NCBI GenBank assembly: GCA_019310525.1
Contig: JAFDEE010000039.1
Coordinates: forward strand, 1-39,119
Source of the DNA: Deltaproteobacteria bacterium
GTDB lineage: Bacteria > Desulfobacterota > DSM-4660 > Desulfatiglandales > HGW-15
Reading direction: 5' to 3'
DNA: 39,119 nt
This document shows, piece after piece, positions 3,986 through 38,737 of the stretch; the stretch's first letter is position 1; each line of letters opens with the position of its first letter. Under the pieces are notes generated by a model. It worked only from the letters and a program-made list of their open reading frames with translations, searched no databases and was not told where the DNA came from. The position numbers and the translations under genes are program-made.

Positions 3986-6022
3986 CTATCTCAGGGAGCG
4001 AACCAGGCGGACGGAATTCATGGAGGACTTCGGGAAGAAAATGACAAAACCCATGTGATAATTTGCCTTCCAGGCCGTGTTCAAATCCCTGGTATCGGCG
4101 CTCCAGATATATCGCTGGGCCTTGTCGAAGATGGGATCGATGAAAAGGTCGCTGTTCCGCCAGGATCTTTCCATCAGGGACAAGAGCTCCTCAAGGGTCG
4201 GAAGTCGCCAGTCGGTATATCCCGCAAAGGCCTCCCTGTTGGCAGCCTCCGCATAGGCCCGGGCCTCTTCCCAGGTCATGGGGTCAGGCGACCCACTCTT
4301 TTGCCACATGAGCCCGGTGGCCTTATCGGTCACAGTGCCGTCCCCGTTGTCCACAAAGGCATTGTCAAAGTCCCCTTCCGGGTTACAGAAATCCCCGTTG
4401 TAATTCCAGCAGGTTGAATAGAAATGGAGTTTCTCGAGCATTTCCCTGACGTTCATAGGGGAAAGGCTCTTGGGCCTGTCCCTCAGGACTATGGGTTTTA
4501 AGGGTTTTGGAGGAGGAAGGGAGGCGACCTCCAAGGCTTCCTTCTCCGGTGGGGGTGCTTCTTCAACCGTGGGAGGGGGCGTCTGTTTGGGGGTCTCCTT
4601 TTCCGGCTCTTCGGTCACCTTCGGTCCAGGGGTCTCGACTTCCTGGGGTGCCGGTGCAACCTCCGGTGAAAGGGCTTCCTCCTCGGTCCCTTCCTTTCCG
4701 GGCTCGGGAGGGGCGGGAGTTATCTCCTCCCTCTCCTTTACGCTTTCCTCCGGAAATGAGATTTCGGGCCCTTCAGGGATTGCTGCGATAGTGGGAGGTG
4801 GTGCGACTTTTTTCTCAGGCTCCTCTTCGGCGGGTTCTCGGGTTGTAAGTGCCGGGATCTTGTCACCCGGGCCCTTGGTCTCCTTTTCGGCCATCATTTC
4901 TTTTACGCTCGGGGCGGGGGCCGATATCATGATTTCTTCTTGTCCTCCCTTGGCGGAAAGGGCAAGGCTCTCCTCACGGTCAACTTCCACCTTGGGTGTT
5001 ACGGTCTCTTTTGCACGGGCCTCTTTCTGACCAGGAGGGGTCACCGCCTCCTCCTTTCTCTCTGATCCAACAGGCATTTTTTCCGCAGTTTCAACCTGAA
5101 CTGCAGAGGCCACGGCAGGCACGGCTTCCCCCTCTCCCCCCCGGGCCGCCGTTTGCACCAGAGGCATCTCCATCATCCCTCCGGCCAGGATCTTGATATA
5201 TGGAGCCTGTTTCTCCGGATTCTCAACTGACCACATGCCCATGCCTTCCTTCACAAAGGCGGAGAGTTCAGCCAGGGAAACGATCCCGTCCCCGTTGCCG
5301 GCAGAAGTCATATCCGCCTCTCCTTTCAGCCCCCTCATTAAAAAGGTAGCGAAAACACCGTGTCCCGTATCCGGGTCCGTATGGGAAAAGAACCCTTTCC
5401 TCGCTCCGTAGAAAAGGGCCGTCACCCCCCGTTTGAAATATCTGTCAGGATAAAGCCCCCTAAAGTCCCGATATCCTTGAACGGTGATTTCCTCCCTGGA
5501 AGCGTCCAGCATGAGCAGACTCCTCTTAACCCCCGTCTTCTTGAAGAAATCCAACACCTCCTGCATGGGCAAAGCGGTGGTCCGAAGCCGGGCGAGTCTT
5601 GTATCCTGGAGGGCCAGGAAGGACCCGCCTGAAGGGCTCATGATTCCCTGTCCAGAGAAAAAAAACAGGACGAGGTCCCGGGGCTTGATGATCTCCCTGT
5701 AACGTCGGAAGAGGGCGAGAATATTCTTGCGGGAAGGGAAGAGGGGATCCCGGCGGTCCAATTCATCGCTCAAAAGAAACACCTTCCGAAATCCTCCCTT
5801 TTCCCGAAGGACCTCGGCAATTCCCCGGGCATCGCCACCACTCCCCGGTGAATCAACGATTCGGGGATCCTCGTAATTGCTGATGCCAATGCAAAAGGCC
5901 CATCTGTCACCTTCACCGGCGCCAAGAGGAGTCCCGGGATCGGCCGAAGCGCGGGAAAAAAGGCAGGAGAAGAACAAAACCTCCAGGAAAAAAATGGTCA
6001 GAAAGAACGGGATCTTTTTCAT
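3986..6022 (-). CDS. Secreted catalytically dead caspase-like protein with C-terminal Lcl/DUF1566 domain
   Basis: 678 aa, exported: signal peptide at residues 1-27 (hydrophobic core FFLTIFFLEVLFF, likely cut after SRASA). Residues 38-275 are a caspase/peptidase C14 fold: WAFCIGISNYEDPRI, the GGDARGIAEVL helix, strand LVLFFFSGQG, strand LLMLDASREE, and an EF-hand-like GNGDGIVSLAEL. The catalytic His of the usual SGHG motif is Gln125, and the catalytic Cys of LLDAC is Ser175, so proteolysis is not expected. Residues 290-540 are a low-complexity Pro/Glu/Lys/Val linker. Residues 545-678 form an Lcl-type DUF1566 domain (DNGDGTVTDKATGLMWQKS, YTDWRLPTLEELLSL, SVRLVRSLR). The role is probably scaffolding or binding in the periplasm or at the surface. 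It appears monocistronic, with its own terminator. Confidence 0.88.
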   Translation of the reverse strand: MKKIPFFLTIFFLEVLFFSCLFSRASADPGTPLGAGEGDRWAFCIGISNYEDPRIVDSPGSGGDARGIAEVLREKGGFRKVFLLSDELDRRDPLFPSRKNILALFRRYREIIKPRDLVLFFFSGQGIMSPSGGSFLALQDTRLARLRTTALPMQEVLDFFKKTGVKRSLLMLDASREEITVQGYRDFRGLYPDRYFKRGVTALFYGARKGFFSHTDPDTGHGVFATFLMRGLKGEADMTSAGNGDGIVSLAELSAFVKEGMGMWSVENPEKQAPYIKILAGGMMEMPLVQTAARGGEGEAVPAVASAVQVETAEKMPVGSERKEEAVTPPGQKEARAKETVTPKVEVDREESLALSAKGGQEEIMISAPAPSVKEMMAEKETKGPGDKIPALTTREPAEEEPEKKVAPPPTIAAIPEGPEISFPEESVKEREEITPAPPEPGKEGTEEEALSPEVAPAPQEVETPGPKVTEEPEKETPKQTPPPTVEEAPPPEKEALEVASLPPPKPLKPIVLRDRPKSLSPMNVREMLEKLHFYSTCWNYNGDFCNPEGDFDNAFVDNGDGTVTDKATGLMWQKSGSPDPMTWEEARAYAEAANREAFAGYTDWRLPTLEELLSLMERSWRNSDLFIDPIFDKAQRYIWSADTRDLNTAWKANYHMGFVIFFPKSSMNSVRLVRSLR

Positions 6023-8235: not shown

Positions 8236-10452
8236 TCAGATAGGCCGGGTGAGCCGGATTTTCCATTCAATTTTGTCCCCCACCCCCCGGGTCTTGACCT
8301 CCTTGATCAGTACATTTTCGTGTCGGTCAGGGAGGGTCAGGGAAGCGTTGATGCCCTTTACAGTGGTATCACGGAAAATACTCCCCGTGACCCGAACTTC
8401 CGGAACCCCTTTCTCTGCCTGGCGCCTGGCGTTCAGCTCCGCGATTTTATCCTGAATCCCCCTGATCTCCTCCTCAACTGGTACGGCCTTCTTTTCAAGG
8501 TCCGACTTCTCACCGGAGAGCCGGTCCTGCTCTTCAAACAGCCCCTCAAGATCCTTTTCCCTCCCCTCTATCCGTTCTTGAAGGGCCTTCATAGTGGCCT
8601 CAATCCGTAAGCGCTGCTCTTCGTCTCCGGCTGCCTCCGGTTCCTGCATCTTTTCCTGGAGTTGCTTCAAGGTCATTCTATCCCTGTCCTGTTCCTGGGC
8701 CAGGTTGCCGAGTTCTTCTTGGGCCTTGTCGGATTCCTTCTTGATCTTTTCAAGACGGAGCCTGATTTCCCGTATTTTCTCTTCCTTGGCCGCCAATTCC
8801 TCCCTTAAAGACTCGATCGCCTTTCGGATTCTCATGTCTTCGCCCACGATCAGGGTGCAGGGTTTGGTTTTCTCCGAACCGATCTGGCCGGCCCGGATTC
8901 CTTTCTTGGCTGAGATCATGGAAGAGAAAACCACGCCCTCAGGGATACTCAAAGAACCGCTCGTCTCAATCCGGGAGTCAATGATCTCCTTTTCGATCAC
9001 CACGTCACCCCCGGCCTCGATCTGAGCATCCCGAACGAATGTGGAACTCACCAGCCCTCCGGCCTTCATGCGGGTACCGATAATTCCCCCGGAAACCACC
9101 ACGTCCTCCTGGGATTCAATCTCGGCCCGTAGGATTTCTCCCGCGAAAATCTTGACCCCTTTGACCTGGAGACCGTTCTGTACCGATCCGGAAACCCGGA
9201 TATCCCCCTCGAATTCGATGTTCCCCCTCTTGATGTCCACGTCCCCGTCGATTTCCAGGAGAGGAAGGACGGAGATACATCCGTCCGCCTGGATGACCGG
9301 CCTCCCATCGACCTCCGCGATCACTTTGAGAGCTTCCCTGGAAAGGCTCACTCCCGGTCCCGCCCGGAAAGGAGGACTTTCAGGCATCGGTGGGGGAATA
9401 GGATTTCCAAAAACATCCATCCCCACCTCCCCCTCCTCCGGGAAGTATTCAGCCAGGACATCTCCACGTTTTACCCGGGAAAAATCGGGGCGCCCCTCCG
9501 AACCCTTTGTGTCGTCCCCGGGCTGGGGTCGGTCGAAGTAAAATCTTATTCCTCGCTCTCCCGCTTCCTCCGGGGGAGTGCCTTGAGCGACCAGGAGGTG
9601 TTTCCCCTCCCCGAACTGGCTCTCCAGGTATCTCTGGATAAGAAAATCCTCGATAATCCCATGAACGATCCCGTGGGACCGGAGAAAGGCCTTGACATCG
9701 GCGAGGGTCACAGGTATCGGAGGAAGCCCTTCATCCTCCCGGGGTACAAGAAGCGCGGTCAGCCTGTCTTCGGAGACCTCCAGTCGGAAGGGTGGGCCCT
9801 CTCTGGATACCCGGGGTGGTGCAACCGCCTCCGACTCTCCCTCCGCTTGTTCCTGGTGAAGGGCCTCCTGTCGCCTGAGGATTGAATCTCGTTGTTGCGG
9901 GGTCATTGTACCGGATCGAACCAGAAGTTCACCAATGGAGACCACAACCTTTTTTTTCTTGAAGATCCTTTTTTGCTGTTCCAGGGCATGATTCACGTCA
10001 TCCTGGGTGGCGAACTGGTTCTCCACCGCGAGGCGGCCGAATCTCAAGTCCGCCTGCCTGGTCTGGATCAAGGACTGAACAGAGAGGAGAAAATTCAACT
10101 GGTTTTCATTAATCACCCCGCGATGGAGGAGAAGCTGGCCCAGGGGCACGGATTGCCCCTCCTTCACCATCTTTGCCTGCTCAAGGACCACTTCCATCAC
10201 CTGTTCCCTGGAGGCGAACATATATTTAACCGTCAGCTTTCCGATCAGGAGGGTACCGTCATTACAATCGATCCCCTGGGCCTCGGCCGGCTCGCAGGGA
10301 TGTTCTTTCTCATCCGCACCCTTCACCGGGGCCAGGGGGAAGACCGCCCCGCATTGCTTACAGGGAAGGTCCCTGCCCAAAAGGGCCTTGGGGACCCTGT
10401 AAGAAAAGTTGCAAACAGGGCAATATACGATCTGATGCTCTTTTTCGGTCAT
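8236..10452 (-). CDS. FapA-like DUF342 protein with zinc-ribbon and MshEN-like N-terminal domains
   Basis: Large cytoplasmic protein, 738 aa. Residues 9-36 form a zinc ribbon (C11-x2-C14 and C31-x2-C34). Residues 65-200 contain two MshEN/GspE-N-like modules (IGKLTVKYMFASREQVMEV...PLGQLLLHRGVI and FGRLAVENQFATQDDV...SIGELLVRSGTM), a fold that in other proteins can bind cyclic di-GMP. Residues 220-540 are the DUF342/FapA region: an N-terminal alpha/beta part, then a right-handed beta-helix rich in VSGSVQNG, VKIFAGEILRAEIESQ and VVVSGGIIGTRMKAGG. Residues 550-680 are a long coiled coil. FapA proteins (such as Vibrio YvvD/FapA) regulate kinases or flagellar and membrane functions. The gene stands alone with its own promoter (10504-10532). 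Confidence 0.88.
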   Translation of the reverse strand: MTEKEHQIVYCPVCNFSYRVPKALLGRDLPCKQCGAVFPLAPVKGADEKEHPCEPAEAQGIDCNDGTLLIGKLTVKYMFASREQVMEVVLEQAKMVKEGQSVPLGQLLLHRGVINENQLNFLLSVQSLIQTRQADLRFGRLAVENQFATQDDVNHALEQQKRIFKKKKVVVSIGELLVRSGTMTPQQRDSILRRQEALHQEQAEGESEAVAPPRVSREGPPFRLEVSEDRLTALLVPREDEGLPPIPVTLADVKAFLRSHGIVHGIIEDFLIQRYLESQFGEGKHLLVAQGTPPEEAGERGIRFYFDRPQPGDDTKGSEGRPDFSRVKRGDVLAEYFPEEGEVGMDVFGNPIPPPMPESPPFRAGPGVSLSREALKVIAEVDGRPVIQADGCISVLPLLEIDGDVDIKRGNIEFEGDIRVSGSVQNGLQVKGVKIFAGEILRAEIESQEDVVVSGGIIGTRMKAGGLVSSTFVRDAQIEAGGDVVIEKEIIDSRIETSGSLSIPEGVVFSSMISAKKGIRAGQIGSEKTKPCTLIVGEDMRIRKAIESLREELAAKEEKIREIRLRLEKIKKESDKAQEELGNLAQEQDRDRMTLKQLQEKMQEPEAAGDEEQRLRIEATMKALQERIEGREKDLEGLFEEQDRLSGEKSDLEKKAVPVEEEIRGIQDKIAELNARRQAEKGVPEVRVTGSIFRDTTVKGINASLTLPDRHENVLIKEVKTRGVGDKIEWKIRLTRPI

Positions 10453-14463: not shown

Positions 14464-15756
14464 ATGATCAAACGTTATACACGCCCTGAGATGGGCCGCA
14501 TATGGGGGGATGAAAACCGGTTCGCAAAATGGCTCGAAGTGGAAATTGCGACTTGCGAGGCCATGGCCGAGCAAGGCCTGATTCCCAGGGAATCCCTCGA
14601 AAATATCAAGAACCGGGCCAGCTTCTCGGTTGAGCGGATACTGGAAATCGAAGAGGAAACCAAGCACGATGTAATCGCCTTCCTGACTAACCTGGAAGAA
14701 TCCATCGGCCCGGATTCCCGTTTCATCCACTTGGGTCTGACCTCTTCCGACGTACTGGACACCAGTTTCGCCTTACTCCTCAAGGAGGCCATGCAGCTGA
14801 TCCTGAGGGATCTTGAGGAATTCATGACCGTGGTCCGCGAAAGGGCCCTTGAGCACAAGTACACCGTTATGATCGGTCGGTCCCATGGTATTCATGCCGA
14901 ACCCATCACCTTCGGCCTGAAGCTCGCCAACTGGTACACGGAGTTGAAACGGGACAAGAAAAGGCTGGAGGAGGCCCTGGAAGTCATCGCTTACGGCAAG
15001 ATATCCGGCGCGGTGGGAACCTTTGCCAACGTCTCTCCCGAAATCGAGGCCAGAGTATGCCTAAAGCTGGGCCTGAAACCCGCCGAAGTATCCACCCAAA
15101 TCCTCCAGCGCGACCGCCATGCCCAGTACTTTGCGGCCTTGGCCATCCTTGCGGGGACCATGGAACGAATAGCCGTAGAAATCCGTCATCTTCAACGCAC
15201 CGAGGTCCTGGAGGCCGAAGAGCCCTTTGGAAAAGGACAGAAGGGTTCCTCAGCCATGCCCCACAAAAAAAACCCCATAGGATCGGAGAATATCTCTGGT
15301 CTCGCCCGGCTGGTCCGATCCAATTCCCTGGCCGCCATGGAAAATATCGCCCTCTGGCATGAACGAGATATCAGTCATTCTTCCGTTGAAAGGGTGATTG
15401 GCCCTGACAGCACCATCCTTGTGGATTTCATGCTCACCCGTCTTACCGGCATCGTCCGAAACCTAGTGGTTCATCCTGAAAAGATGCAGGAAAATCTCCA
15501 GATGTTGAAAGGTCTCATCTTTTCCCAGCAACTCCTGATGAAACTTGCCGCATTGGGCCTCAAACGGCAGGAGGCCTATGAACTGATCCAGAAAAATGCC
15601 CTGCAGGTATGGGAAACCGGCCGGGATTTCAAATCCCTGCTTCTGGAAGATGCTGAAATCACGAAGCACCTTTCCAAAGAGGATATCGAAGAGGTTTTCA
15701 GCATCGATTACCATCTCAAGCACGTGGACGACATCTTTAAACGGGTCTTTGGTTGA
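14464..15756 (+). CDS. purB: Adenylosuccinate lyase
   Basis: Fumarase/aspartase-superfamily enzyme of purine synthesis. It cleaves SAICAR to AICAR and adenylosuccinate to AMP, releasing fumarate, and acts as a cytoplasmic homotetramer. 430 aa, typical of the short bacterial form. Key segments: RYTRPEMGRIWGDENRFAKW at the N terminus, IHLGLTSSDVLDT, GRSHGIHAEPITFGLK (catalytic His region), and the superfamily signature GSSAMPHKKNPIGSEN with the catalytic Ser. ATG 14464 is the first codon matching the family N terminus. No other purine gene is nearby. Confidence 0.96.
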   Translation: MIKRYTRPEMGRIWGDENRFAKWLEVEIATCEAMAEQGLIPRESLENIKNRASFSVERILEIEEETKHDVIAFLTNLEESIGPDSRFIHLGLTSSDVLDTSFALLLKEAMQLILRDLEEFMTVVRERALEHKYTVMIGRSHGIHAEPITFGLKLANWYTELKRDKKRLEEALEVIAYGKISGAVGTFANVSPEIEARVCLKLGLKPAEVSTQILQRDRHAQYFAALAILAGTMERIAVEIRHLQRTEVLEAEEPFGKGQKGSSAMPHKKNPIGSENISGLARLVRSNSLAAMENIALWHERDISHSSVERVIGPDSTILVDFMLTRLTGIVRNLVVHPEKMQENLQMLKGLIFSQQLLMKLAALGLKRQEAYELIQKNALQVWETGRDFKSLLLEDAEITKHLSKEDIEEVFSIDYHLKHVDDIFKRVFG

Positions 15757-15934: not shown

Positions 15935-17308
15935 ATGAAACCGATGATGAAAGGGATGACGAGAAGACGGCATAATTTCCTGCGATCAAAGCCAATTTTA
16001 TTTCACTGTTATTTCCTGTTCCTGACATTCGTTCTCCTCCTCCAACCCCTTCCTTTCCTGGCCGACGCCTCCATGCCCCCCGGCGAGGGAAGGAGGAAAG
16101 TGCCCGCGGCCCTTTTGAAATGGCCGGAAGGGGGTTCGCCTTACGCCGTCCTGGTCGACAAGTCCAGGCAAAAGGTATACCTTTATCATAGAGATTCTCC
16201 TTTCAGGCCCAAAAGGGTGTATGATTGTTCCACCGGGGAGATGCCGGGTCCAAAGACCAGGACCAACGACCGAAGGACTCCGGAAGGGATCTACTTTTTC
16301 ACTAAAAGCTTCACAGACCGGGAGCTTTCGCCCATTTACGGAATACGGGCCTTCCCCATCGATTATCCCAACCCGATCGACACGCGGATGGGGCGCGACG
16401 GGTACGGGATATGGTTCCATGGAACAAACAAACCTTTGAAACCCCGGGACACGAACGGCTGTATCGCACTCAGGAACGAAAGCATTGATGAGTTGGCGTC
16501 TTTTATCAAGCTCTACGACACCCCGGTTATCATCAGCCGGGAAATTAAGCTGGCCGATCCCATGGAGGTAACCAAAGAGGCCGCGGCCCTGGAGAAAATC
16601 ATCGAGGGATGGAGAAAGGCTTGGGAATCAAAAAATATTCCCACTTATATGTCCTATTACAGCCGATGGTTCCACGCCGGGGACAAGGACTGGAAGGCAT
16701 GGAAGGCTTACAAGAGCCGATTGGCCAAAAAGTATCGGAAGATCCGGGTTGAAATCGAGAATCTCCGACTGATCGAGAGCGACGGCGTTGTGGTAGCCTC
16801 CTTTAACCAGCGGTACCGAACCGAAATGCTTCGAAGCGAAGGGGTAAAAAAACTATACCTCCAACAAAACAGCAAAGAGTGGAAGATTGTCGGTGAACAC
16901 TTTTACGGAAAGGACCGGGGTATCGTCCTGGCTGCCCGAAAAAAGACCAAGGCCCTTTCGCCCGTCCAGGAGATCCGCGCCTTCCTTAATAAATGGGAAA
17001 AATCTTGGGAAACCAAAGACTTGAAAACCTATATCTCCTGCTATGACCGCTCATTCAGATCGCGGGGAATGAACCTTACGGAATGGAAACGGTATAAAGA
17101 AAGGTTAAACAGGAAATACCGAACCCTCAGCGTGGAGCTTGGCGAGCTGAATATTTCCTTTCTTTCGAAACGAAGGGCAAGGGTGAGTTTCCGACAGGAA
17201 TACCGTGCCGACGAATACCGGGATGTCGGTATCAAGAAAATCCTGCTTGTCAAAAAGGGCGGGCATTGGAAGATAAGGGAAGAGAAATGGCGTCCCCTGA
17301 AGAGATAA
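15935..17308 (+). CDS. Csd6/Pgp2-like L,D-transpeptidase-fold protein with two NTF2-like domains
   Basis: Exported murein enzyme candidate, 457 aa. A hydrophobic segment (about 20-45) is a signal peptide or anchor. The YkuD domain (about 68-205) has VDKSRQKVYLYH, the TPEGIYFFTK strand, and the active site H162 (IWFHGT) with T173-N-G-C176 (DTNGCIALRNESI). Two homologous NTF2-like domains follow: about 218-325 (WRKAWESKNIPTYMSYYSRWF) and about 345-457 (WEKSWETKDLKTYISCYDRSF). H. pylori Csd6 and C. jejuni Pgp2 share the YkuD plus NTF2 layout and trim tetrapeptides to tripeptides. Here the NTF2 part is duplicated. The start is uncertain: several ATGs between 15935 and 15956, none with a good ribosome site. 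It overlaps the next gene by 22 nt. Confidence 0.85.
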   Translation: MKPMMKGMTRRRHNFLRSKPILFHCYFLFLTFVLLLQPLPFLADASMPPGEGRRKVPAALLKWPEGGSPYAVLVDKSRQKVYLYHRDSPFRPKRVYDCSTGEMPGPKTRTNDRRTPEGIYFFTKSFTDRELSPIYGIRAFPIDYPNPIDTRMGRDGYGIWFHGTNKPLKPRDTNGCIALRNESIDELASFIKLYDTPVIISREIKLADPMEVTKEAAALEKIIEGWRKAWESKNIPTYMSYYSRWFHAGDKDWKAWKAYKSRLAKKYRKIRVEIENLRLIESDGVVVASFNQRYRTEMLRSEGVKKLYLQQNSKEWKIVGEHFYGKDRGIVLAARKKTKALSPVQEIRAFLNKWEKSWETKDLKTYISCYDRSFRSRGMNLTEWKRYKERLNRKYRTLSVELGELNISFLSKRRARVSFRQEYRADEYRDVGIKKILLVKKGGHWKIREEKWRPLKR

Positions 17309-18090
17309 CCCCTTCGTCTAAGAAAAAGGACCGAAAGGCCCGCCGTCTCACAGTCATGGTCATGCGGGATGTGGGTGGCGTGCGGTCCTTCAAAATCTCT
17401 TCCCGTTTTTTCGTATGTGTCAGCCTGTTTTTCATCGCCTTTATTGTCTTATCCATTTTCGCTATCAACGCCTATCTTGATCTGCGCCTCCGGTACGACG
17501 ATCAATCCGAAAGCCTGGCCGCATGTGTGGAGGCCAATAACCGCCGGGATCGCGAACTCAAGAGGGCCATGGGGCGCATCGCCCTGCTGGAAGATTACGC
17601 CAGAGATCTCGAGGGGCGTTTGAAGGAAAAGGTCCAGGTGGCCCGGGAAAACGTTTCCAGGCCGAAGGCAGAACCCAAGGAACAAAAAAAAGATACGTCC
17701 TCTCCACCCCCCCCGAAACCAGCCCCAAAGCTGGTGGATGTCAGGGATGTCTCCGTAAAAAGGGAAAACAGCCAAATCACCGTGGAGTTCAAACTGGTAA
17801 ATCTCAGGCCTGGCCAGGCCCCGGTGGGAGGTTATGTTTATGTGCTGGCCGTCGCCAAGGGAATCGACCCTCCCCTCTATTCGATCCACCCGGAGGTAAA
17901 GCTTAAGGACGGAATACCAGCCAACTACAAAAAGGGGCAGCCATTTTTCATTCAAAGGTTCAAGCCCATGAAAGCCCGATTTAACCTGTCACGGTTCCCG
18001 ACAACCCAGGCCGCCATCCAGGTGCTGGTCTATGATCAAAAAGGAAAAATCCTTTTGAAGAAGGACTTCGAGGCCGATAATGCAACCTAG
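17287..18090 (+). CDS. Single-pass membrane coiled-coil protein of unknown family
   Basis: 267 aa from ATG 17287, which has an AAGGGA site; an earlier TTG is less likely. A basic cytoplasmic N terminus (SKKKDRKARRLTVMVMRD) precedes one membrane helix (about 42-63, FFVCVSLFFIAFIVLSIFA). A coiled coil of about 60 residues follows (SESLAACVEANNRRDRELK... to LEGRLKEKVQ), then a Pro/Lys-rich linker, then a C-terminal beta-rich domain of about 115 residues (LVDVRDVSVKRENSQITVEF ... IQVLVYDQKGKILLKKDF). I do not recognise the family. It overlaps the Csd6-like gene by 22 nt and the Csd4-like gene by 11 nt, so its product very likely works with both, perhaps as a membrane anchor holding the two murein enzymes together. 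Confidence 0.85.
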   Translation: MASPEEITPSSKKKDRKARRLTVMVMRDVGGVRSFKISSRFFVCVSLFFIAFIVLSIFAINAYLDLRLRYDDQSESLAACVEANNRRDRELKRAMGRIALLEDYARDLEGRLKEKVQVARENVSRPKAEPKEQKKDTSSPPPPKPAPKLVDVRDVSVKRENSQITVEFKLVNLRPGQAPVGGYVYVLAVAKGIDPPLYSIHPEVKLKDGIPANYKKGQPFFIQRFKPMKARFNLSRFPTTQAAIQVLVYDQKGKILLKKDFEADNAT

Positions 18091-19870
18091 ATCCAAGGTA
18101 TCTCGTTTCATCTTATCCCTTGTCCTTGCGGTCCTTTTCACCGCAGGGGTGTTCCTTTTCCCCTCTCGGGCCCTTTGCAAGCGTGATCATATCGTATATT
18201 TCCCCAATACCGCGTATGAACTAAACATCTACAAGATTTACGGTAAAAAACCCGGGAAGACCCTCATGCTCATCGGCGGGATCCAGGGCAACGAACCGGG
18301 GGGTTTCCTTTCCGCAGACCTCTATGCGGATATGAGCCTGGAGAGGGGCAACCTCATCGTGGTCCCCCGGGCCAACTTTTACTCTATTATTCTCAATCAA
18401 AGGGGCCCCAACGGGGACATGAACCGAAAGTTCACCCACGAAGAGATCTCATCCAGCATGGAGGACCGAATCGTAACGATCCTGAAGCGGTTGATCAGTG
18501 AAAGCGATTATCTCCTCAATCTTCATGACGGTGCCGGGTATTATTACCCCAAGTACATCAACAAATGGCGCAACCCCATGCGCTTCGGACAGGCCATAAT
18601 CGCTGACTGCGCGGAGTATCGGGTCCCGGGGACCGGGAAAGTGATCAAGCTCCGGGAAATGGCCGAAAGGGTGATCCGGGAAGTGAATCCTCACATTTCA
18701 AATGAACTTTATAAATTTCACTTCATGAATACCCGAACAGGTGATCCTGACAGCCCCCACGGGGAGCAACGAAGGTCCGCCACCTATTACGCCCTCACAA
18801 GACACCATATTCCAGCCTTCGGCGTGGAAACCTCTAAATTCCTGCCTTCCATAGATCTGAAAGTGCGGTATCACAACCTGGTCATCAACGCCTTTAAGAA
18901 AATCTTCGGGATCATTCCCGAGTCCCCCGGGCTCAAACTGGACCCCCCTGCGCTCAAGTACCTTGTGGTTTCCATCAATGGACAGACCCCCATCGTGGTC
19001 AAAAAGGGGGAGACCATACGGCTTCACAGAGGAGACATCATCGATGTCACCCACATCGAGTCAAATTACGAGAGGGGCTTGAGCCTGGATATCCTTGGAT
19101 ACGGCGGATTAAACGATTACAGGAAGGCTTTCGGGATCTTCCGGAATACCAGCCTCCTTGTAAGAAAAGACAATCAGAAATTCGCCGAGATTCCAATCAA
19201 GATCGTGAAGCGGGATGCCCGCCCCAGAGGCCCCGAGTCAGGGATGCCGAGAAAAGTGGATTACTTTATCATAGAATCCCGGGGGAAGCGGCTTCTCTTG
19301 AAAAATGGAGAAACCCTCGAGGTAGTCAAAGGGGATAAGATAAAGATCCTGGATGTCATTCCCCGGCTTCCCATTTCTCCCGAAGTGAATGTCAATTTCA
19401 AGGGATTCGTGGGCGACAAGAAAAACAACACGGGAGAAGACCGGGGATACATCATCGATACGGCCCGGGACCTCATGAGGCGTTATTCCCTGAACAAACA
19501 GGGTAATATTTACGAAATCATTGTTTCAAAAGGGAAGGTAGTCATAGGTAGGCTGAAGGTGTCCCTGATTCCTCCAAGGCTGGATTTCATGGTTCTCAAG
19601 GTCAACAACACTTCCCATTGTCTCATAAGGCCCGGGGAAACCGTGAGTTTGAAGGGTCGGGACCGGATCTGCCTGGAAGAGATCCGGACCAACCTCCACG
19701 ATGATGGAGATGTTCACTTGAACATCAATGGACGCAGGCTCTATCCCGGTGAGGTGGAGGAACTGGGCCGATTATGCCCGGAGGGAGACGGAAAGCCCTG
19801 TCTGGTCCGGGTGACCAAAGGATCCGACCTGCTTGGAAAGGCATATATTCTCCCTAAAGAGGGAACATAA
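18080..19870 (+). CDS. Csd4/Pgp1-like D,L-carboxypeptidase (peptidase M99 family)
   Basis: Exported zinc carboxypeptidase, 596 aa. The signal peptide spans about residues 8-33. The M14-fold catalytic domain (about 36-285) shows the unusual zinc ligands of the Csd4/Pgp1 group: Q69 and E72 (GGIQGNEPGGF) and H149 (NLHDGAGYYYP). It also has the substrate-binding N115-R116 (GDMNRKF) and catalytic Glu250 (FGVETSKF). Three consecutive beta domains follow (about 320-400, 415-510, 520-595). Each starts with a strand and a pattern like VKKGETIRLHRGD / LKNGETLEVVKGD / IRPGETVSLKGRD. Csd4 cuts the DL bond in muropeptide tripeptides and is needed for helical shape in Helicobacter. ATG 18080 overlaps the preceding gene, implying coupled translation. 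Confidence 0.9.
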   Translation: MQPRSKVSRFILSLVLAVLFTAGVFLFPSRALCKRDHIVYFPNTAYELNIYKIYGKKPGKTLMLIGGIQGNEPGGFLSADLYADMSLERGNLIVVPRANFYSIILNQRGPNGDMNRKFTHEEISSSMEDRIVTILKRLISESDYLLNLHDGAGYYYPKYINKWRNPMRFGQAIIADCAEYRVPGTGKVIKLREMAERVIREVNPHISNELYKFHFMNTRTGDPDSPHGEQRRSATYYALTRHHIPAFGVETSKFLPSIDLKVRYHNLVINAFKKIFGIIPESPGLKLDPPALKYLVVSINGQTPIVVKKGETIRLHRGDIIDVTHIESNYERGLSLDILGYGGLNDYRKAFGIFRNTSLLVRKDNQKFAEIPIKIVKRDARPRGPESGMPRKVDYFIIESRGKRLLLKNGETLEVVKGDKIKILDVIPRLPISPEVNVNFKGFVGDKKNNTGEDRGYIIDTARDLMRRYSLNKQGNIYEIIVSKGKVVIGRLKVSLIPPRLDFMVLKVNNTSHCLIRPGETVSLKGRDRICLEEIRTNLHDDGDVHLNINGRRLYPGEVEELGRLCPEGDGKPCLVRVTKGSDLLGKAYILPKEGT

Positions 19871-19884
19871 GAGGCCCTTATTCC

Positions 19885-21873
19885 TTAAGGCCCCGCGTAT
19901 TCGATTTTCAACACATCATTCCAGGGGTCGGACTTCTGGATCCTGACCGTGATATGTTGCCCCTCCTGTAACATTTGTCCCTCCTGGCGCTTCATTTCAG
20001 CCACAAGAAGGAAATCCAGCAGGACCACGCGGTATCTATTTCTCATCTCATCCAGGACGAGGGCAGGAAAGGTCTCGCCCGTGTGTTGTAGAAGGAATTT
20101 CAACAACCAGTATCGAGACCGATTTCTTTTCACCGTTCCGAGGTCCCTCAGCGCGACCGAGAGAAGCATCTGGATTTTTTCCAGGTCCTCGGCCGAGTAA
20201 ACAGGCTTCTTGCCGAGCAGGACATTTCTCAACTGGCGCTGAACCACCAGATCAGCATATCTCCGGATGGGGGAACTGGCATTGGTATAGGCATCCAGGC
20301 CGAGACCGGCGTGGGACTTGGCCTCTGTTTCCACCTTGAGGGGGCTCAGTTTGCGGCGCTGCTTGAATACGTAAAAAACATAATTATCCTCGTTCACCGG
20401 CAAGCGTTCCCCTGGTTCTTCTTGAGTCCTGTACAGGATGGGAATCCCGTGATCCCTGCAATAGCGGGCGACGAGCCAATTATAGAGAATCATGCACTCG
20501 GCGACCATGGTTCGGGCAGGCGTATTTTGATCCAGTGTCTGGAGGACAATCTCTCCTCCCGGATCAACGCGGATGGAAATTTCGGGCAAGGAGAGGACCA
20601 GGGCCCCCTGCTCAATCCGCCTGTGTTGAAGAATCTGCGTGAGGCGGTGGAGTGCTGAAAGGGCCTTATCCTCTAAGAAAGTCGCATCCACCTTATCATA
20701 ATCCAGGCGCTTGTTGACCCTGATTATGCTCCTAATGAACCGGTAATCTAAAAGGTTCCCCTCTCCGTCAAATCTGCAAAGAAGGGAAAGGGCCGCCCTA
20801 TCCGAGCCTTTGGTCAGGCTGAGGATGCCCTGGGAAAGCTCGGGGGGTAACATGGGGATCTGGGTACGCGGCAAATACAGGGAAGAAGCCCGGTGAAAGG
20901 CCTCCTTGTCGAGAACACCGCCTTCCGGAACCGTACCGGCCACGTCCGTGATATGAATCCCGAGGGTAATCTCGCCATCATGAATCTCCACGCTCAGGGC
21001 GTCATCAAAATCCTCTGTCATCGGCCCATCTATGGTGAAAACGGAAAGGTCCCGGAGGTCTTCCCCTCCTTCCGCCGCACCAGGGTCCGTCTCCGCCAAT
21101 AGCCGGGAGGCCCTGAGCACCTCCGGACCGAAGGATCTCCGGATATCATACCGGATAAAATCCAAATTTTCGTCTTCCTCCCAGACTCCGATTTTGCAAA
21201 GGATCTTCCGCGCCTCCCCGGTATCCGTAACCCCGGCCCTCTTGAGAAGTTCTTTCCCCTGTTTGAAATCGGGGGATTCCTTCCCAAAGACCGCAAGCTC
21301 CACCAAAAGCCTTACGACCTCGTCCCTGCAGGCCGGCTCCTGGACATCCTTGCCATCAAGCACGTCCTGGAGCCACTTGCCTCCCCGACCGAGGAGTTCC
21401 TCCCTGGCGGCTTCCTCTTCCCTTTGTTTCAGCATCTGCTCTATCCGCTCCTCGGAGTTCGGGAAAAAGCGCCCGTCTTTCATCTTGAAATAGAGCTTAT
21501 CTTCGAAAAGGGCCCGGACCAGGGCGGAAACATGTTGATCGCCGACCGCTTCCCCAAAGCAGAGTTCGGCCAGGTACCGGCCCTCGAAGGATCCGGTCTC
21601 CTCCTTGAGGAGTTCCCAGAGCGCAGGTACGTCGATCTTTTCCTTGAGCCTTATACGGGCTTCCTCCGCCTGTTTCAATTTTCCCAGGAGTCCTTCCCGC
21701 GAATGATCCACTCCCAGGATTTCACTGGAGACCAGCATGGCCCGCTTGGGAGGGAGATTGACCTCTCGATTGGTGGGGGTCAAAAGGTGAAGTCTGTTTC
21801 CCTTGTCCTGAAGACACAGGGCGCAGATGAAATTTCCCTGATCTATGTATTCTATGATTCTGCCCTCATACAT
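19885..21873 (-). CDS. RNase II/RNase R family exoribonuclease
   Basis: Cytoplasmic 3'-5' exoribonuclease of the RNB family, 662 aa. The N-terminal part (1-250) resembles OB/winged-helix RNA-binding modules. The RNB catalytic domain begins about residue 270 with VFTIDGPMTEDFDDALSVE, supplying the clustered aspartates that bind Mg. It continues with LGIHITDVAGTVPEGGVLDKEA, LYLPRTQIPMLPPELSQGILSL and SPIRRYADLVVQRQL, the family's RNA-end-binding signature. The C-terminal 60 residues look like an S1-type OB fold. It converges on the Csd4-like gene (14-nt gap) and diverges from the YidD-like gene. Confidence 0.9.
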   Translation of the reverse strand: MYEGRIIEYIDQGNFICALCLQDKGNRLHLLTPTNREVNLPPKRAMLVSSEILGVDHSREGLLGKLKQAEEARIRLKEKIDVPALWELLKEETGSFEGRYLAELCFGEAVGDQHVSALVRALFEDKLYFKMKDGRFFPNSEERIEQMLKQREEEAAREELLGRGGKWLQDVLDGKDVQEPACRDEVVRLLVELAVFGKESPDFKQGKELLKRAGVTDTGEARKILCKIGVWEEDENLDFIRYDIRRSFGPEVLRASRLLAETDPGAAEGGEDLRDLSVFTIDGPMTEDFDDALSVEIHDGEITLGIHITDVAGTVPEGGVLDKEAFHRASSLYLPRTQIPMLPPELSQGILSLTKGSDRAALSLLCRFDGEGNLLDYRFIRSIIRVNKRLDYDKVDATFLEDKALSALHRLTQILQHRRIEQGALVLSLPEISIRVDPGGEIVLQTLDQNTPARTMVAECMILYNWLVARYCRDHGIPILYRTQEEPGERLPVNEDNYVFYVFKQRRKLSPLKVETEAKSHAGLGLDAYTNASSPIRRYADLVVQRQLRNVLLGKKPVYSAEDLEKIQMLLSVALRDLGTVKRNRSRYWLLKFLLQHTGETFPALVLDEMRNRYRVVLLDFLLVAEMKRQEGQMLQEGQHITVRIQKSDPWNDVLKIEYAGP

Positions 21874-29235: not shown

Positions 29236-29766
29236 ATGGACAAACGCATACAGATCGTCGAGGGAGACATCACCCGGCAGGAGGTGGACGCCATTGTTAA
29301 CGCGGCGAACAATTCCCTGCTGGGCGGTGGCGGAGTCGATGGGGCCATTCATAGGGCGGCTGGGCCGGAACTCCTGGAGGAAACCCGCAAGATCGGTGGA
29401 TGCCCGACCGGTGAGGCACGTGTCAGCAAGGGCTACCGGCTCCCTGCCAAGTGGGTCATTCATACCGTGGGTCCCGTCTGGACCGGGGGGCAAAGAAACG
29501 AAGAGGCCCTCCTGGCCGGTTGCTACCGCAGCAGTCTAAAGGCCGCCGTTGACCTGGGTGTGAAATCCATCGCTTTTCCGTCCATCAGTACGGGGGCCTA
29601 CGGGTTCCCCCTGGAAAGGGCCACGGAAATCGCCCTTGAGGAGACCCGAAAATTCCTTCAAGAAGACCAAACCCTGGAAAAGGTGGTCTTCGTCTGCTTC
29701 GGAGAAAAGGTCTATCGGACTTACCGGGAGATCGCCTCCAGGATCTTCGGGGAACAGCCTGGATAA
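29236..29766 (+). CDS. Macro-domain protein (O-acetyl-ADP-ribose deacetylase-like)
   Basis: 176-aa single macro domain. It binds ADP-ribose and probably hydrolyses O-acetyl-ADP-ribose or ADP-ribosyl esters, as YmdB does. Motifs: IQIVEGDITRQEVDAIVNAAN (adenine and ribose contacts), NNSLLGGGGVDGAIHRAAG (glycine loop with catalytic Asp), CPTGEARVSKGYRLPAKWVIH, and AFPSISTGAYGFPLERATEIA (phosphate loop). The length is normal. ATG 29236 follows GGAGGGACGC. It has no sirtuin or ADP-ribosyltransferase neighbour, so it is probably a stand-alone housekeeping hydrolase. Confidence 0.93.
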   Translation: MDKRIQIVEGDITRQEVDAIVNAANNSLLGGGGVDGAIHRAAGPELLEETRKIGGCPTGEARVSKGYRLPAKWVIHTVGPVWTGGQRNEEALLAGCYRSSLKAAVDLGVKSIAFPSISTGAYGFPLERATEIALEETRKFLQEDQTLEKVVFVCFGEKVYRTYREIASRIFGEQPG

Positions 29767-31536: not shown

Positions 31537-32034
31537 CTATCGTGATGGCATACCTTCCGGGTTCAAGCAGGAGAGAAAGACTTCACCACCGGCAGCCAGG
31601 GAGAAAATCGCGTCATCCACCTTGAAACGGCACTCCAGGATTTCGTCTTCCGTTCCGAGGAAGCCTTCTGTACGGGTTTCCGGCAATCCGAGCCTGAAGG
31701 AAGTCTCCGGAGGGATTACCCGGTTCATGACCCTGCCGGCGATGGTGTTCAAGAGTTCCGCCAGGAGATCGAGCAAGGTCTGCTCGGGGATCTCTTCCTC
31801 ATCCGTATTGAAGAGCATCCTGGCCATGTCGGCTACCGACGACCTAGGGGCCTCGAGGCACATTTCCCCGGGAAAAGGATCGTTTATCAGCAGGCTGGTC
31901 TTCAAAACTTCCGGCTCCGGCCCTGGTGCCTCGGGGAACTCTACCTGGAGCACCTCCAGGAAAAACATTTCTTCGAATGTCTCCGCCACCGCCGAAGCCA
32001 TGACCTCTCGCAATCTGTTCATACTGTCGATCAT
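31537..32034 (-). CDS. CheX-like chemotaxis phosphatase
   Basis: 165 aa from ATG 32034, which overlaps the stop of the CheY-like gene (ATGA) and has a GGGAGG site. The frame extends upstream, but only through sequence that encodes CheY in another phase. The CheC/CheX phosphatase motif is present once: LLAELLNTIAGRVMNRVIPPE, with the E-x2-N pair needed for hydrolysis of CheY-phosphate. A single copy fits CheX better than CheC. The neighbouring receiver is its obvious substrate. It is the last gene of the chemosensory operon. Confidence 0.82.
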   Translation of the reverse strand: MIDSMNRLREVMASAVAETFEEMFFLEVLQVEFPEAPGPEPEVLKTSLLINDPFPGEMCLEAPRSSVADMARMLFNTDEEEIPEQTLLDLLAELLNTIAGRVMNRVIPPETSFRLGLPETRTEGFLGTEDEILECRFKVDDAIFSLAAGGEVFLSCLNPEGMPSR

Positions 32035-32465
32035 TCGGATCCCTCCCATACCTCTGGAGAAGCGGGTGTTCCTGCACCCCACTGCCCCATCCCCTCCACC
32101 AAGTCGCTGATCGACCGGCTCAGTTCCCCGGGGGATACCGGCTTCCCGATCACGGCCCGTGCCCCAAGGGCGAGGACTTCCTTTTCCTTGGCGGGATTTC
32201 CCGCACTTGAAACCATTATAACCGGAATATCATGGGTCTTAGGGCTCCCCTTTAACCACCGCAAGAAGGTCTCTCCGTCCATGACAGGCATGTTCAGATC
32301 CGTAACCACGAGGTCCACTGGTTCCTTCTTGAGAAGCGAGAGGGCCTCCCTCCCGTTCCCTGCTTCGAAAAAGGCCGCGTCCGGCAGACCGGCGATCTGG
32401 AGACATCGCTTGATCACCATCCTCGCGGTATTGGAGTCATCTACGATGAGGACCTTTTTCATCAC
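32031..32465 (-). CDS. CheY-like single-domain response regulator
   Basis: 144 aa: one receiver domain plus a short tail. Acid pocket and phospho-acceptor are visible: VLIVDDSNTARMVIKRCL (D9, D10), VTDLNMPVMDGETFLRWL (phospho-Asp in VTDLN), switch residue Ser in VIMVSSAGNPAKEKE, and Lys in ARAVIGKPVSPGEL. There is no output domain, so it works by protein contact. Its start overlaps the HDOD gene stop by 4 nt, and its stop overlaps the CheX-like start by 4 nt. Confidence 0.92.
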   Translation of the reverse strand: MMKKVLIVDDSNTARMVIKRCLQIAGLPDAAFFEAGNGREALSLLKKEPVDLVVTDLNMPVMDGETFLRWLKGSPKTHDIPVIMVSSAGNPAKEKEVLALGARAVIGKPVSPGELSRSISDLVEGMGQWGAGTPASPEVWEGSE

Positions 32466-33325
32466 TTAACCTCCCCGCTCCCAAAGATAGAAAACATTGT
32501 CTGCCTGAACTCCTCTTCCACGCGGAGCATGATTCTTTCGAGTCCATCGGGGGATATTCGAAAATGGTCGGAGAATCCCCCGTCCATGCGGTACTGGAGG
32601 TCGTCACACCCTGTTCCCGTACCCCCCAGCATGGCCATGATGTCCCCCAGGTGAACCGCGTACACCAGAGGCCGGATTGCCTCTGTCGCGCCGGAGGGAC
32701 GATGGTGATGACGGATGATCTCGGGCAAGGGATAGGGCAGACCCCAGGACTTGGCGAGTCGGTAACCGGCCACGGAGTGATCCGATCCCAGCCTGTCTCT
32801 CTCCGCTGCCGGGTAGTCCCCCGTGTCCCCCGCATCAATCTCTTCGAGGATCCCAGGGCCCGAATCCTTTAGAAACCCGGAAACCACAGCTTTTCCGATA
32901 TCGTGAAGGATCCCGCCCGTAAAAGCCAGGTCGGGGCTGATCTTCCCCCGGGCATCCCTTGAGACCAGCCTCGAGGCGATGGCCGCCCTCAGGCTGTGAG
33001 CCCAAAGCGCTCCCCTTTCACATTCATAGCCTTCCAGGGAACGGTTAAAAACATCCGTGGCGCACGACTCCAAAGCGATCCCCAGGACAATCTTGTCTCC
33101 CAGGAAGGAGACGGCGCGGGCGATGGAGAGAGCAGGATTTACCAGGGAGAACCTCGCGGAATTGACCACCCTGAGGACCCTAGCGGTGAGGGCCGGATCG
33201 CACTCTACGATTTTGGTGACCTGCATTACGTCATGATCCGGGTCCCCCATAAGATTGAGGAGCTGCGTGGCGCTTTGTGATAAGGGGGGTATCTCGTCGA
33301 TTTTTTGAAGGATCTCCTCTTTCAC
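32462..33325 (-). CDS. HDOD-domain signalling protein
   Basis: 287 aa, one HDOD domain (a divergent, usually non-catalytic relative of HD-GYP phosphodiesterases) covering about 10-215. It keeps IPPLSQSATQLLNLM, VVNSARFSLVNPALSIARAVSFLG and FTGGILHDIGKAVVSGFL, with the HD pair HD-x-G present, and EIIRHHHRP. The last 60 residues are extra. HDOD proteins link chemosensory or two-component signals to motility and cyclic di-GMP. It sits between cheD and the CheY-like gene and overlaps the latter by 4 nt, so it is a built-in part of this pathway. Confidence 0.9.
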   Translation of the reverse strand: MKEEILQKIDEIPPLSQSATQLLNLMGDPDHDVMQVTKIVECDPALTARVLRVVNSARFSLVNPALSIARAVSFLGDKIVLGIALESCATDVFNRSLEGYECERGALWAHSLRAAIASRLVSRDARGKISPDLAFTGGILHDIGKAVVSGFLKDSGPGILEEIDAGDTGDYPAAERDRLGSDHSVAGYRLAKSWGLPYPLPEIIRHHHRPSGATEAIRPLVYAVHLGDIMAMLGGTGTGCDDLQYRMDGGFSDHFRISPDGLERIMLRVEEEFRQTMFSIFGSGEVK

Positions 33326-33370
33326 GGCGATGTACCCCGTACGGGATGAAAATATTCGAACGTCCGTGGA

Positions 33371-33847
33371 TCAGATATACCAATCATTTCGCCCCGTGGA
33401 TGAAATGACAATGCTGCCGGTATTGACATCGACTGCTACGTTCCGGCTGATACTACCTCCCACGTCTTCGCCCACGGTGCCCATACCAAGGGACCAAAGG
33501 GCCTTTTTGATGGCAAGAACGTTTCGCTTGCCGATGTTGAAGGTGTTCCCCGGATCCATGATCTTTGCCCCACCCGCAAGTTTTACTATCATCCCCTTGC
33601 CGTTTCCCCTGTAACCCCTTTTTCTCATTTCATCCAGCAGGGCCGGGACCCCTGTGTCCGCAAAATACCCGGGCTTTTCCCTGGCCTTTTGGTCGTTCAC
33701 TTCTGAGTGGGGGAGTGCGACGTGGACCATTCCAACGCTCCTCGTCACGGGATCCAACATCATTACGGCTACGCAGGAGCCTAGAGCCAGGGTCTTGATT
33801 ACGTCACCGGGACTGTTCGTTGCCGCCAAGTCCCCCACCCCCAGCAT
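33371..33847 (-). CDS. cheD: Chemoreceptor glutamine deamidase CheD
   Basis: 158 aa from ATG 33847, with AGGTGG eight nt before it; an in-frame GTG at 33859 is the alternative. It deamidates receptor glutamines and can stimulate CheC/CheX-type phosphatases. The catalytic Cys-His pair is seen in LALGSCVAVMMLDP and GMVHVALPHSE. The Thr/Ser-rich core follows (GMIVKLAGGAKIMD, NIGKRNVLAIKKAL). It starts 15 nt after the cheB stop. The open frame continues upstream into cheB in another phase, but that part is not CheD. Confidence 0.93.
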   Translation of the reverse strand: MLGVGDLAATNSPGDVIKTLALGSCVAVMMLDPVTRSVGMVHVALPHSEVNDQKAREKPGYFADTGVPALLDEMRKRGYRGNGKGMIVKLAGGAKIMDPGNTFNIGKRNVLAIKKALWSLGMGTVGEDVGGSISRNVAVDVNTGSIVISSTGRNDWYI

Positions 33848-33861
33848 GATGGTTTCCACCT

Positions 33862-34914
33862 CTAATGCTCCTGGACCAGGTTCAACACTTCCCTGGCCAT
33901 ATCCTTCAACGGAACAAGTCTTTCCGCACCACCCTGTTCGTAAGCAACCTTGGGCATACCGAAAACAACGGAGGAGGCCTCGTCCTGGGCCAGGGTCCTG
34001 GCTCCCGCCTCCCGCATGGCCGAAAGACCACCCGCCCCGTCGCCGCCCATGCCGGTGAGCACCACCCCCACCGCGTTCGCCCCCACGTTTTTTGCAACCG
34101 AGTGCATTAAAACGTCCACGGACGGCCTGTGGCCGTTCACCTTTTCCCCTTGCCGGCACTCCACGTGATAGTATCCGCCGGAGCGCAAAACCTTCATATG
34201 GTAATCTCCGGGTGCGATCAGCACCCTGCCCGGCATAACCCTGTCCCCGCTTTCCGCCTCCTTCACCTCCATGGCGCAAAGGGTATTGAGACGCTCGGCA
34301 TACATTCTGGTAAACCCTGCGGGCATGTGCTGTACTATCACCACCCCCGGCGCGGCGGCCGGCAGAGGGACCACTACATCCTTGATAGCCTCGGTCCCCC
34401 CGGTTGACGCCCCGATGGCGATGACTTTATCGGTGGATTCGGCCAGGGCCCCTGCACTGGGAGAGAGCCTTGCTGGGGTTCCGTTCCTCTTGCTTTTCCA
34501 GGGGGAAACATTGGCCGTGGAGGCGATTTTGACCTTGGTGCGCAACTCCAGGAGCAAATCGTTCAACCCTCGTTCCACGTCAGTGCTGGGCTTGCTCACA
34601 AAATCCACCGCCCCCGCCTCCAAGGCGTCTATGGTGATCTGCTTCCCCCTCTGGGTAAGGGCGCTCACCATCACCACAGGGAGGGGGTATTGTGGCATGA
34701 GGCGCCGCAGGAACTCCACCCCGTCCATCCGAGGCATCTCTACGTCCAGGGTAAGGACATCCGGGCGGTGCTTGATGATTTCGTCCCTGGCGATGTAAGG
34801 ATCACCGGCCGTAGCAACTACTTCGATAGCCGGATCCATTCCCAGTCCTTGGGCCAGAATGTTACGCACGAGGGCGGAATCATCCACGATGATTACCCGA
34901 ATCGTCCGAGACAT
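33862..34914 (-). CDS. cheB: Protein-glutamate methylesterase/deamidase CheB
   Basis: 350 aa, standard length. The receiver domain (1-125) has VIIVDDSALVRNIL and the phospho-Asp in VLTLDVEMPRMDGVEFL. The methylesterase domain (about 160-350) has the catalytic triad context IAIGASTGGTEAIKDVV (Ser), VIVQHMPAGFTRMYAERL (His) and VLTGMGGDGAGGLSAM (Asp). Its start overlaps the end of cheR by 22 nt. CheA-dependent phosphorylation should activate it to demethylate the receptor encoded just upstream. Confidence 0.96.
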   Translation of the reverse strand: MSRTIRVIIVDDSALVRNILAQGLGMDPAIEVVATAGDPYIARDEIIKHRPDVLTLDVEMPRMDGVEFLRRLMPQYPLPVVMVSALTQRGKQITIDALEAGAVDFVSKPSTDVERGLNDLLLELRTKVKIASTANVSPWKSKRNGTPARLSPSAGALAESTDKVIAIGASTGGTEAIKDVVVPLPAAAPGVVIVQHMPAGFTRMYAERLNTLCAMEVKEAESGDRVMPGRVLIAPGDYHMKVLRSGGYYHVECRQGEKVNGHRPSVDVLMHSVAKNVGANAVGVVLTGMGGDGAGGLSAMREAGARTLAQDEASSVVFGMPKVAYEQGGAERLVPLKDMAREVLNLVQEH

Positions 34915-35843: not shown

Positions 35844-35917
35844 GCTTGTGAACGAACCTTGGATGAACCAGGGATCGAATCCCAGGAATCCGGATCCACA
35901 AAGTGGTCCCCATCTCT

Positions 35918-37957: not shown

Positions 37958-38110
37958 TTTAATTTCCTCCCTTATTTTAGATTCTTTTCCTGATCACCGG
38001 TTTTATGCACTCCCCCAAACACAGTTTCCCTGTGTCATGGGGTCCGCTGCCGACTGCTTCTTCCTGCGGCCCTTATCATCTCTATCCTGCATATTCCTTT
38101 CAGGCCGATC

Positions 38111-38713: not shown

Positions 38714-38737
38714 CGTCCTGTGCCCTCTCAAATCCTA

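Follow-up and report, generated by a model that had tools for sequence, protein, structure and literature searches.

The stretch of DNA analysed here, hereafter the window, comprises 39,119 nucleotides (nt) of contig JAFDEE010000039.1 (assembly GCA_019310525.1) from a deltaproteobacterium of the order Desulfatiglandales (Desulfobacterota). It carries a three-gene operon encoding a YkuD-family enzyme, a membrane protein that we call MID and a zinc carboxypeptidase of the M99 family. The features of the operon are as follows; lengths of open reading frames (ORFs) are in amino acids (aa).

15935..17308, + strand: gene 1, YkuD-NTF2-NTF2 L,D-carboxypeptidase-like protein of the Csd6/Pgp2/Bd1075 type (457 aa ORF)
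16142-16534, + strand: YkuD domain of gene 1 (Pfam YkuD, 5.8e-22)
about 16595-16900 and 16973-17287, + strand: two NTF2-like repeats of gene 1 (Pfam Cds6_C, PF24125, 3.3e-40, in two stretches)
17266..18090, + strand: gene 2, MID, a bitopic coiled-coil protein (274 aa ORF counted from a TTG)
17344..17400, + strand: juxtamembrane beta-hairpin of MID, LmdC-like and predicted to be cytoplasmic (residues 27-45; AlphaFold strands 27-33 and 39-45, block pLDDT 68-87)
17401..17655, + strand: transmembrane segment of MID running into a long coiled-coil helix (AlphaFold helix, residues 46-130, block pLDDT 79-98)
17728..18081, + strand: predicted periplasmic immunoglobulin-like (Ig-like) beta-sandwich of MID (residues 155-272; AlphaFold, VIA-align)
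18080..19870, + strand: gene 3, M99 (Csd4/Pgp1-type) zinc carboxypeptidase (596 aa ORF)
18254-18913, + strand: M99 catalytic domain (Pfam Peptidase_M99, PF17033, 3e-36), with repeated beta domains behind it

The three genes overlap on the + strand, gene 3 starting 11 bases ahead of the end of gene 2. For MID the ATG at 17287, preceded by GGGAAG, is a likelier start than the listed TTG, and counted from there the gene still shares 22 bases with gene 1. The protein encoded by gene 1 begins with a signal peptide, and its best match by sequence in the PDB is Bd1075 of Bdellovibrio (7o21, 2e-49), followed by Csd6 (4xzz, 2e-19) and Pgp2 (6xj6, 8e-19). Its catalytic motif is HGTNKPLKPRDTNGCIA, of which the catalytic His and Cys are invariant across the aligned relatives. 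In carboxypeptidases of this kind the residue two past the catalytic Cys (C+2) is not Arg, being Ala in Csd6 and Pgp2 and Val in Bd1075, while Arg is typical of L,D-transpeptidases (PMC8938487). The window protein has Ala at this position and 91 relatives have V, A, S, T or E, never Arg; this favours a carboxypeptidase over a transpeptidase, short of proof.

The only M99 gene in the window's genome is gene 3. It scores 125.7 bits against Peptidase_M99, where the Pfam gathering cut-off is 27, matches Peptidase_M99_C weakly, and finds Helicobacter Csd4 by sequence in the PDB (4q6m/4wck, E 2e-33). An initial annotation, made from the sequence alone, had picked out Q69, E72, H149, N115-R116 and E250; all are present and are invariant in 21 diverse relatives. 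At the aligned positions of the Csd4 chain, Q69, E72, H149 and E250 meet the same residues, which we take to be its Gln-Glu-His zinc ligands and catalytic Glu. The C-terminal beta part of M99 differs in length among relatives. With the YkuD, NTF2-like and M99 families all matched in Pfam and Csd6- and Csd4-type relatives found in the PDB, we are highly confident that genes 1 and 3 encode Csd6-type and Csd4-type enzymes, as first proposed.

MID has no match in Pfam and no meaningful match in NCBIfam, and is an undescribed protein family. An AlphaFold model built from 32 aligned relatives (mean pLDDT 85.7) returned the single membrane and coiled-coil helix anticipated by the initial annotation, which had likewise called the protein unknown. 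Ahead of this helix lies the beta-hairpin, whose cytoplasmic placement is suggested by the basic N-terminus; behind it, a disordered linker leads to the beta-sandwich. Structural alignment of the sandwich with VIA-align gives a Z of up to 11.7 (root-mean-square deviation 1.7 over 96 residues) against Ig-like domains of GH2 enzymes, matches that are uninformative on function because the Ig-like sandwich is a common fold. DUF6776 (PF20567), a candidate relative of the periplasmic domain of MID, gave no match at E<=1 in the window's own genome and was not among the 25 families listed for MID members.

To place the operon in context we used an even draw of 297 genomes across the phylum, 54 of which hold an M99 relative, and examined 122 distinct M99 loci, which came from about 10 kb around each even-draw relative and from the surroundings of 80 loci named in a genome-wide scan. 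The named loci were picked by similarity to the query, which leaves the even draw as the only unbiased sample. Of the 122 loci, 83 have genes for a YkuD enzyme, MID and M99 together on the same strand, so that the three genes, which the initial annotation had expected to stay together in related genomes, do so. In the 80 loci with one MID and one YkuD gene the median gaps are -37 and -4 nt, with ORFs taken from the first start codon. MID adjoins M99 in 92/122 loci; this count still includes an apparent MID in L044 that we discounted by eye, as it is of low complexity and not adjacent. The MID homologues between the enzyme genes come from many families and share 16-35% identity with the window's copy. 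Chance adjacency of the three genes is ruled out by a gene order kept across many families. M99 genes of distant clades (among them families f42, f36, f64, f40 and f61) mostly have neither partner, and the Syntrophus relatives have neither MID nor an adjacent bactofilin.

A bactofilin is the recurrent fourth gene. A bactofilin profile run over the same 122 loci showed that 47 of the 83 three-gene loci have a bactofilin next to the operon, downstream of M99 in 41 and upstream in 6. The gap between M99 and bactofilin is at most 130 nt, or the genes overlap, in all loci but two. Among even-draw loci, 13/32 with MID have an adjacent bactofilin, compared with 1/19 without MID (Fisher p 0.008); over all loci the figures are 43/76 and 2/26. 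Fisher p values are indicative here and no more, because the rows are related. The four-gene state is spread over many supported and well-separated subclades of the M99 tree (Desulfarculaceae, Desulfobacterales, f41, f53/f19 and Nitrospirota). The mere presence of a bactofilin in a genome is uninformative, because 191 of the 297 genomes have one.

The window's genome encodes two bactofilins, both away from the operon. One (L089) lies behind genes for a penicillin-binding protein and RodA. The other (L090, 7076-7762) has a carboxypeptidase-regulatory-like tail and the same domain make-up as a bactofilin that adjoins a YkuD-M99 pair in a genome of the same order (L059, 6204-6902), to which it is 39% identical over its full length. 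This makes the L090 protein a candidate partner, if only a tentative one, since the L089 protein shows 49% identity across just the shared core. The tail shared by the L090 and L059 proteins, a C-terminal carboxypeptidase-regulatory-like (Ig-type) domain, is unusual for a cytoskeletal protein.

Natural fusions tie MID to the YkuD enzyme. At several loci (L042/L145, L045, L151 and L054/L165) the periplasmic domain of MID forms the C-terminal end of the YkuD protein, where it occupies the place of the second NTF2 domain of other relatives. Three such proteins, in which the MID Ig-like domain replaces the second NTF2 domain of a YkuD-NTF2 protein, are encoded as follows.

L145:2991-4532
L151:3540-5258
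L165:4318-5946

In a Foldseek comparison with the PDB, a model of the L145 fusion (pLDDT 83) matched Bd1075 (E 5e-25), Csd6 (1e-19) and Pgp2 (8e-19) best. As domain-fusion evidence, these proteins suggest that MID and the YkuD enzyme act together in the periplasm, and MID is probably a functional partner of that enzyme. Thus the initial annotation's view that the middle protein is linked to the enzymes holds for the YkuD enzyme; it had missed the bactofilin, and with this fourth partner the likely role of MID shifts from a generic holder of the complex to a cytoskeletal adaptor.

A precedent for such an adaptor exists in LmdC, an M23 peptidase that modulates curvature in Rhodospirillum and binds bactofilin through its cytoplasmic region, in which a beta-hairpin ahead of the transmembrane helix is critical (PMC10945521). 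In three lineages (L036/L037/L114, L168 and L177) an LmdC-type M23 gene and a bactofilin share an operon with MID and M99. The operons in two records named Nitrospirota hold the following genes.

L168:3543-7824: LmdC-type M23, two tandem bactofilins, MID, M99
L177:2352-7767: LmdC-type M23, two tandem bactofilins, MID, M99 and a YkuD gene

A hidden Markov model of the hairpin from MID recovered no M23 protein. In the reverse direction, a model trained on the M23 juxtamembrane segments of 30-31 relatives gave a clear if modest signal, separating MID from other juxtamembrane segments with an area under the curve of 0.82-0.85, and from shuffled MID with 0.78. The three top-ranking 'controls' were M23 proteins of the training set, followed by 22 segments that all belonged to MID. 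The similarity between the MID and M23 hairpins, as judged from sequence, is real but short, and would fit common descent as well as convergence. MID has no Pfam M23 domain and is therefore not an LmdC, but is alike in its membrane part only.

Taken together, and with modest confidence, we read the operon as the form taken in the window by a shape module under the direction of bactofilin, with MID as the bridge from the cytoplasmic filament to both trimming enzymes. In the periplasm the YkuD-NTF2 enzyme would shorten the tetrapeptides of peptidoglycan to tripeptides, and the M99 enzyme would shorten tripeptides to dipeptides. MID would cross the inner membrane once, its cytoplasmic hairpin docking on the bactofilin polymer as the hairpin of LmdC does, while its periplasmic coiled coil and Ig-like domain may hold or recruit the YkuD enzyme and, along with it, the M99 enzyme. 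Trimming would then be confined to the bactofilin-bearing flank of the cell, where reduced local cross-linking could yield a curved or helical shape. In the window's clade one of the two bactofilins encoded elsewhere in the genome would serve. On these grounds MID is somewhat likely to be a bactofilin adaptor.

Several observations weigh against this proposal. The 17-row clade of the window on the M99 tree has no adjacent bactofilin, the window's own copy included; most simply, the operon had four genes early on and this clade then lost the bactofilin gene. A tree-based paired test of whether MID and bactofilin are gained or lost together agreed with their association in 2.4 pairs on average and ran counter to it in 0.3, with a median p of 0.5, the independent pairs being too few and the power low. 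The window's MID scores modestly with the M23-hairpin model (rank 36/156), and the likeness between the hairpins spans about 22 residues only. At L145 and L165, which still have an adjacent bactofilin, we saw no membrane-spanning MID besides the fusion, which indicates that the membrane anchor can be lost there. Moreover, six loci (L032, L128, L132, L138, L142 and L172) keep both enzymes, with YkuD and M99 directly adjacent, and MID is gone; such clean absences mean that MID is not strictly required. The computations show the enzyme identities, the conserved operon, the bactofilin gene in relatives, the domain fusion and the predicted hairpin, and from these we infer the catalytic activities, the docking, the localisation and the effect on shape.

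Some of these points would sit comfortably with MID being a mere inner-membrane anchor, or a folding or stability partner as Csd7 and Csd2 are for Csd1, that makes no contact with bactofilin, the latter belonging simply to the same shape regulon. The fusions point to a partnership in the periplasm that does not depend on the membrane part, and MID loci without an adjacent bactofilin are common (33/83), the window among them. However, the predicted hairpin stands at the site of the bactofilin-binding hairpin of LmdC and is kept family-wide, and bactofilin genes next to M99 are far commoner at loci with MID than at loci lacking it. We therefore consider a bactofilin-independent role for MID unlikely. 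A hitch-hiking membrane protein unrelated to a plain Csd6-Csd4 gene pair is a far poorer explanation still and can be set aside as very improbable: MID is indeed absent from several loci, but its position between the enzyme genes in most of the 122 distinct loci, in many families, together with the domain fusions, largely refutes it.

The nature of gene 1 offers a different challenge. Were the YkuD enzyme a transpeptidase, or an amidase like DpaA, attaching or freeing an outer-membrane protein, the operon would serve envelope remodelling or the recycling of wall fragments and would have no bearing on curvature. The best NCBIfam match of the enzyme, below threshold, is indeed the DpaA/YafK family, and Ala after the catalytic Cys is common to YafK-like enzymes. 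Yet both the NTF2-like domains at its C-terminus and its top-ranking PDB structures indicate Csd6, Pgp2 and Bd1075, the gene is tightly paired with that of an M99 enzyme that uses the tripeptide product, and known M99 carriers are mainly curved or helical. We thus regard this alternative as improbable and retain the bactofilin-directed trimming module as the preferred reading.

Much of what the initial annotation put forward as its headline is prior knowledge. An operon of this kind outside Epsilonproteobacteria is real, but its novelty does not stand, since both the occurrence and the neighbourhood of the enzyme genes had been published. Two papers of 2012 report M99/Pgp1 in Delta- and Epsilonproteobacteria that are mainly curved or helical (PMC3310789, PMC3310797), and according to a paper of 2014 no more than 300 bp separate pgp1 from pgp2 in four species (Nitratiruptor, Nautilia, a Desulfococcus and Persephonella; PMC3961634). 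The passages covered in the 2012 and 2014 literature on these enzymes make no mention of MID or of a link to bactofilin. Likewise, a mainly open-access literature on bactofilin with Csd4 or with Desulfobacter yielded no description of such a link. What is new is the MID family and its tie to bactofilin, as well as the fusions of the MID domain to the YkuD enzyme and the presence of LmdC (M23) in the same operon in three lineages.

The operon is flanked upstream by a gene for adenylosuccinate lyase (14464-15756, + strand) and downstream by a convergent RNase II-type gene (19885-21873, - strand). Promoter-like matches in the operon region are no more frequent than expected by chance. Elsewhere in the window lies a chemotaxis cluster (31537-38731, - strand) encoding CheX, HDOD, CheB, CheR, an MCP with HAMP repeats and a second CheR, as well as FapA (8236-10452); an M23 gene in L091 has a flagellar gene neighbourhood. 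Together these indicate a motile bacterium. Two further genes deserve mention, one (3986-6022, - strand) pairing a caspase-like peptidase C14 domain with an Lcl_C domain in one protein, an unusual combination, and the other (29236-29766, + strand) encoding a stand-alone macro-domain protein.

Bactofilins steer M23 endopeptidases and a wall synthase, and trimming of the Csd6/Csd4 type bends cells. The authors of the work on Bd1075 noted that no mechanism was known for such asymmetric enzyme targeting (PMC8938487). An operon that unites both trimming enzymes with a bactofilin and a proposed bitopic adaptor, whose hairpin is LmdC-like, makes a concrete candidate for one-sided enzyme placement. 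A cultured carrier of the four-gene operon is at hand in Desulfocarbo indianensis (L041/L139), which is vibrio-shaped (PMC4559730). The six YkuD-M99 loci that lack MID are natural tests of the need for it. Whether the bacterium of the window is itself curved we judge to be an even call. More tentatively, it is possible that a MID-type adaptor family physically couples cytoplasmic bactofilin filaments to the Csd6-Csd4 pair, and that the resulting four-protein shape machine is ancestral in Desulfobacterota (with relatives in Nitrospirota), the enzyme genes of Helicobacter and Campylobacter being scattered.

Compared with known systems, the operon combines familiar parts in a different arrangement. 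The M99 enzyme has in common with Csd4 and Pgp1 the catalytic domain, the Q-E-H zinc site, the catalytic Glu and an M99_C-like domain. However, its C-terminal part is longer than that of Csd4, seemingly by an extra copy of the beta module (residues about 290-596, by eye), and unlike Csd4 and Pgp1 it is operonic with the enzyme supplying its substrate. Gene 1 shares with Csd6, Pgp2 and Bd1075 a YkuD domain followed by an NTF2-like domain and the catalytic His and Cys, and with Csd6 and Pgp2 the Ala at C+2; it has two NTF2-like domains where theirs have one, and some of its relatives swap the second for the MID domain. Bd1075, the known YkuD-NTF2 curvature enzyme outside Epsilonproteobacteria, is encoded by a monocistronic gene (PMC8938487), whereas gene 1 stands in an operon with MID and M99. 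MID may be likened by description to Csd7 and Csd5 of H. pylori, both of them non-enzymatic proteins linked to wall enzymes and to the bactofilin CcmA; Csd5 is confined to H. pylori and H. acinonychis (PMC3310797). With the LmdC-bactofilin pair of Hyphomonas and Rhodospirillum and the Csd1-CcmA pair of Helicobacter, the system shares a bitopic protein with a short hairpin, predicted in MID to be cytoplasmic, a transmembrane helix and a coiled coil, and a bactofilin neighbour. In place of the M23 peptidase of LmdC, however, MID carries an Ig-like domain, and the enzymes are separate proteins.

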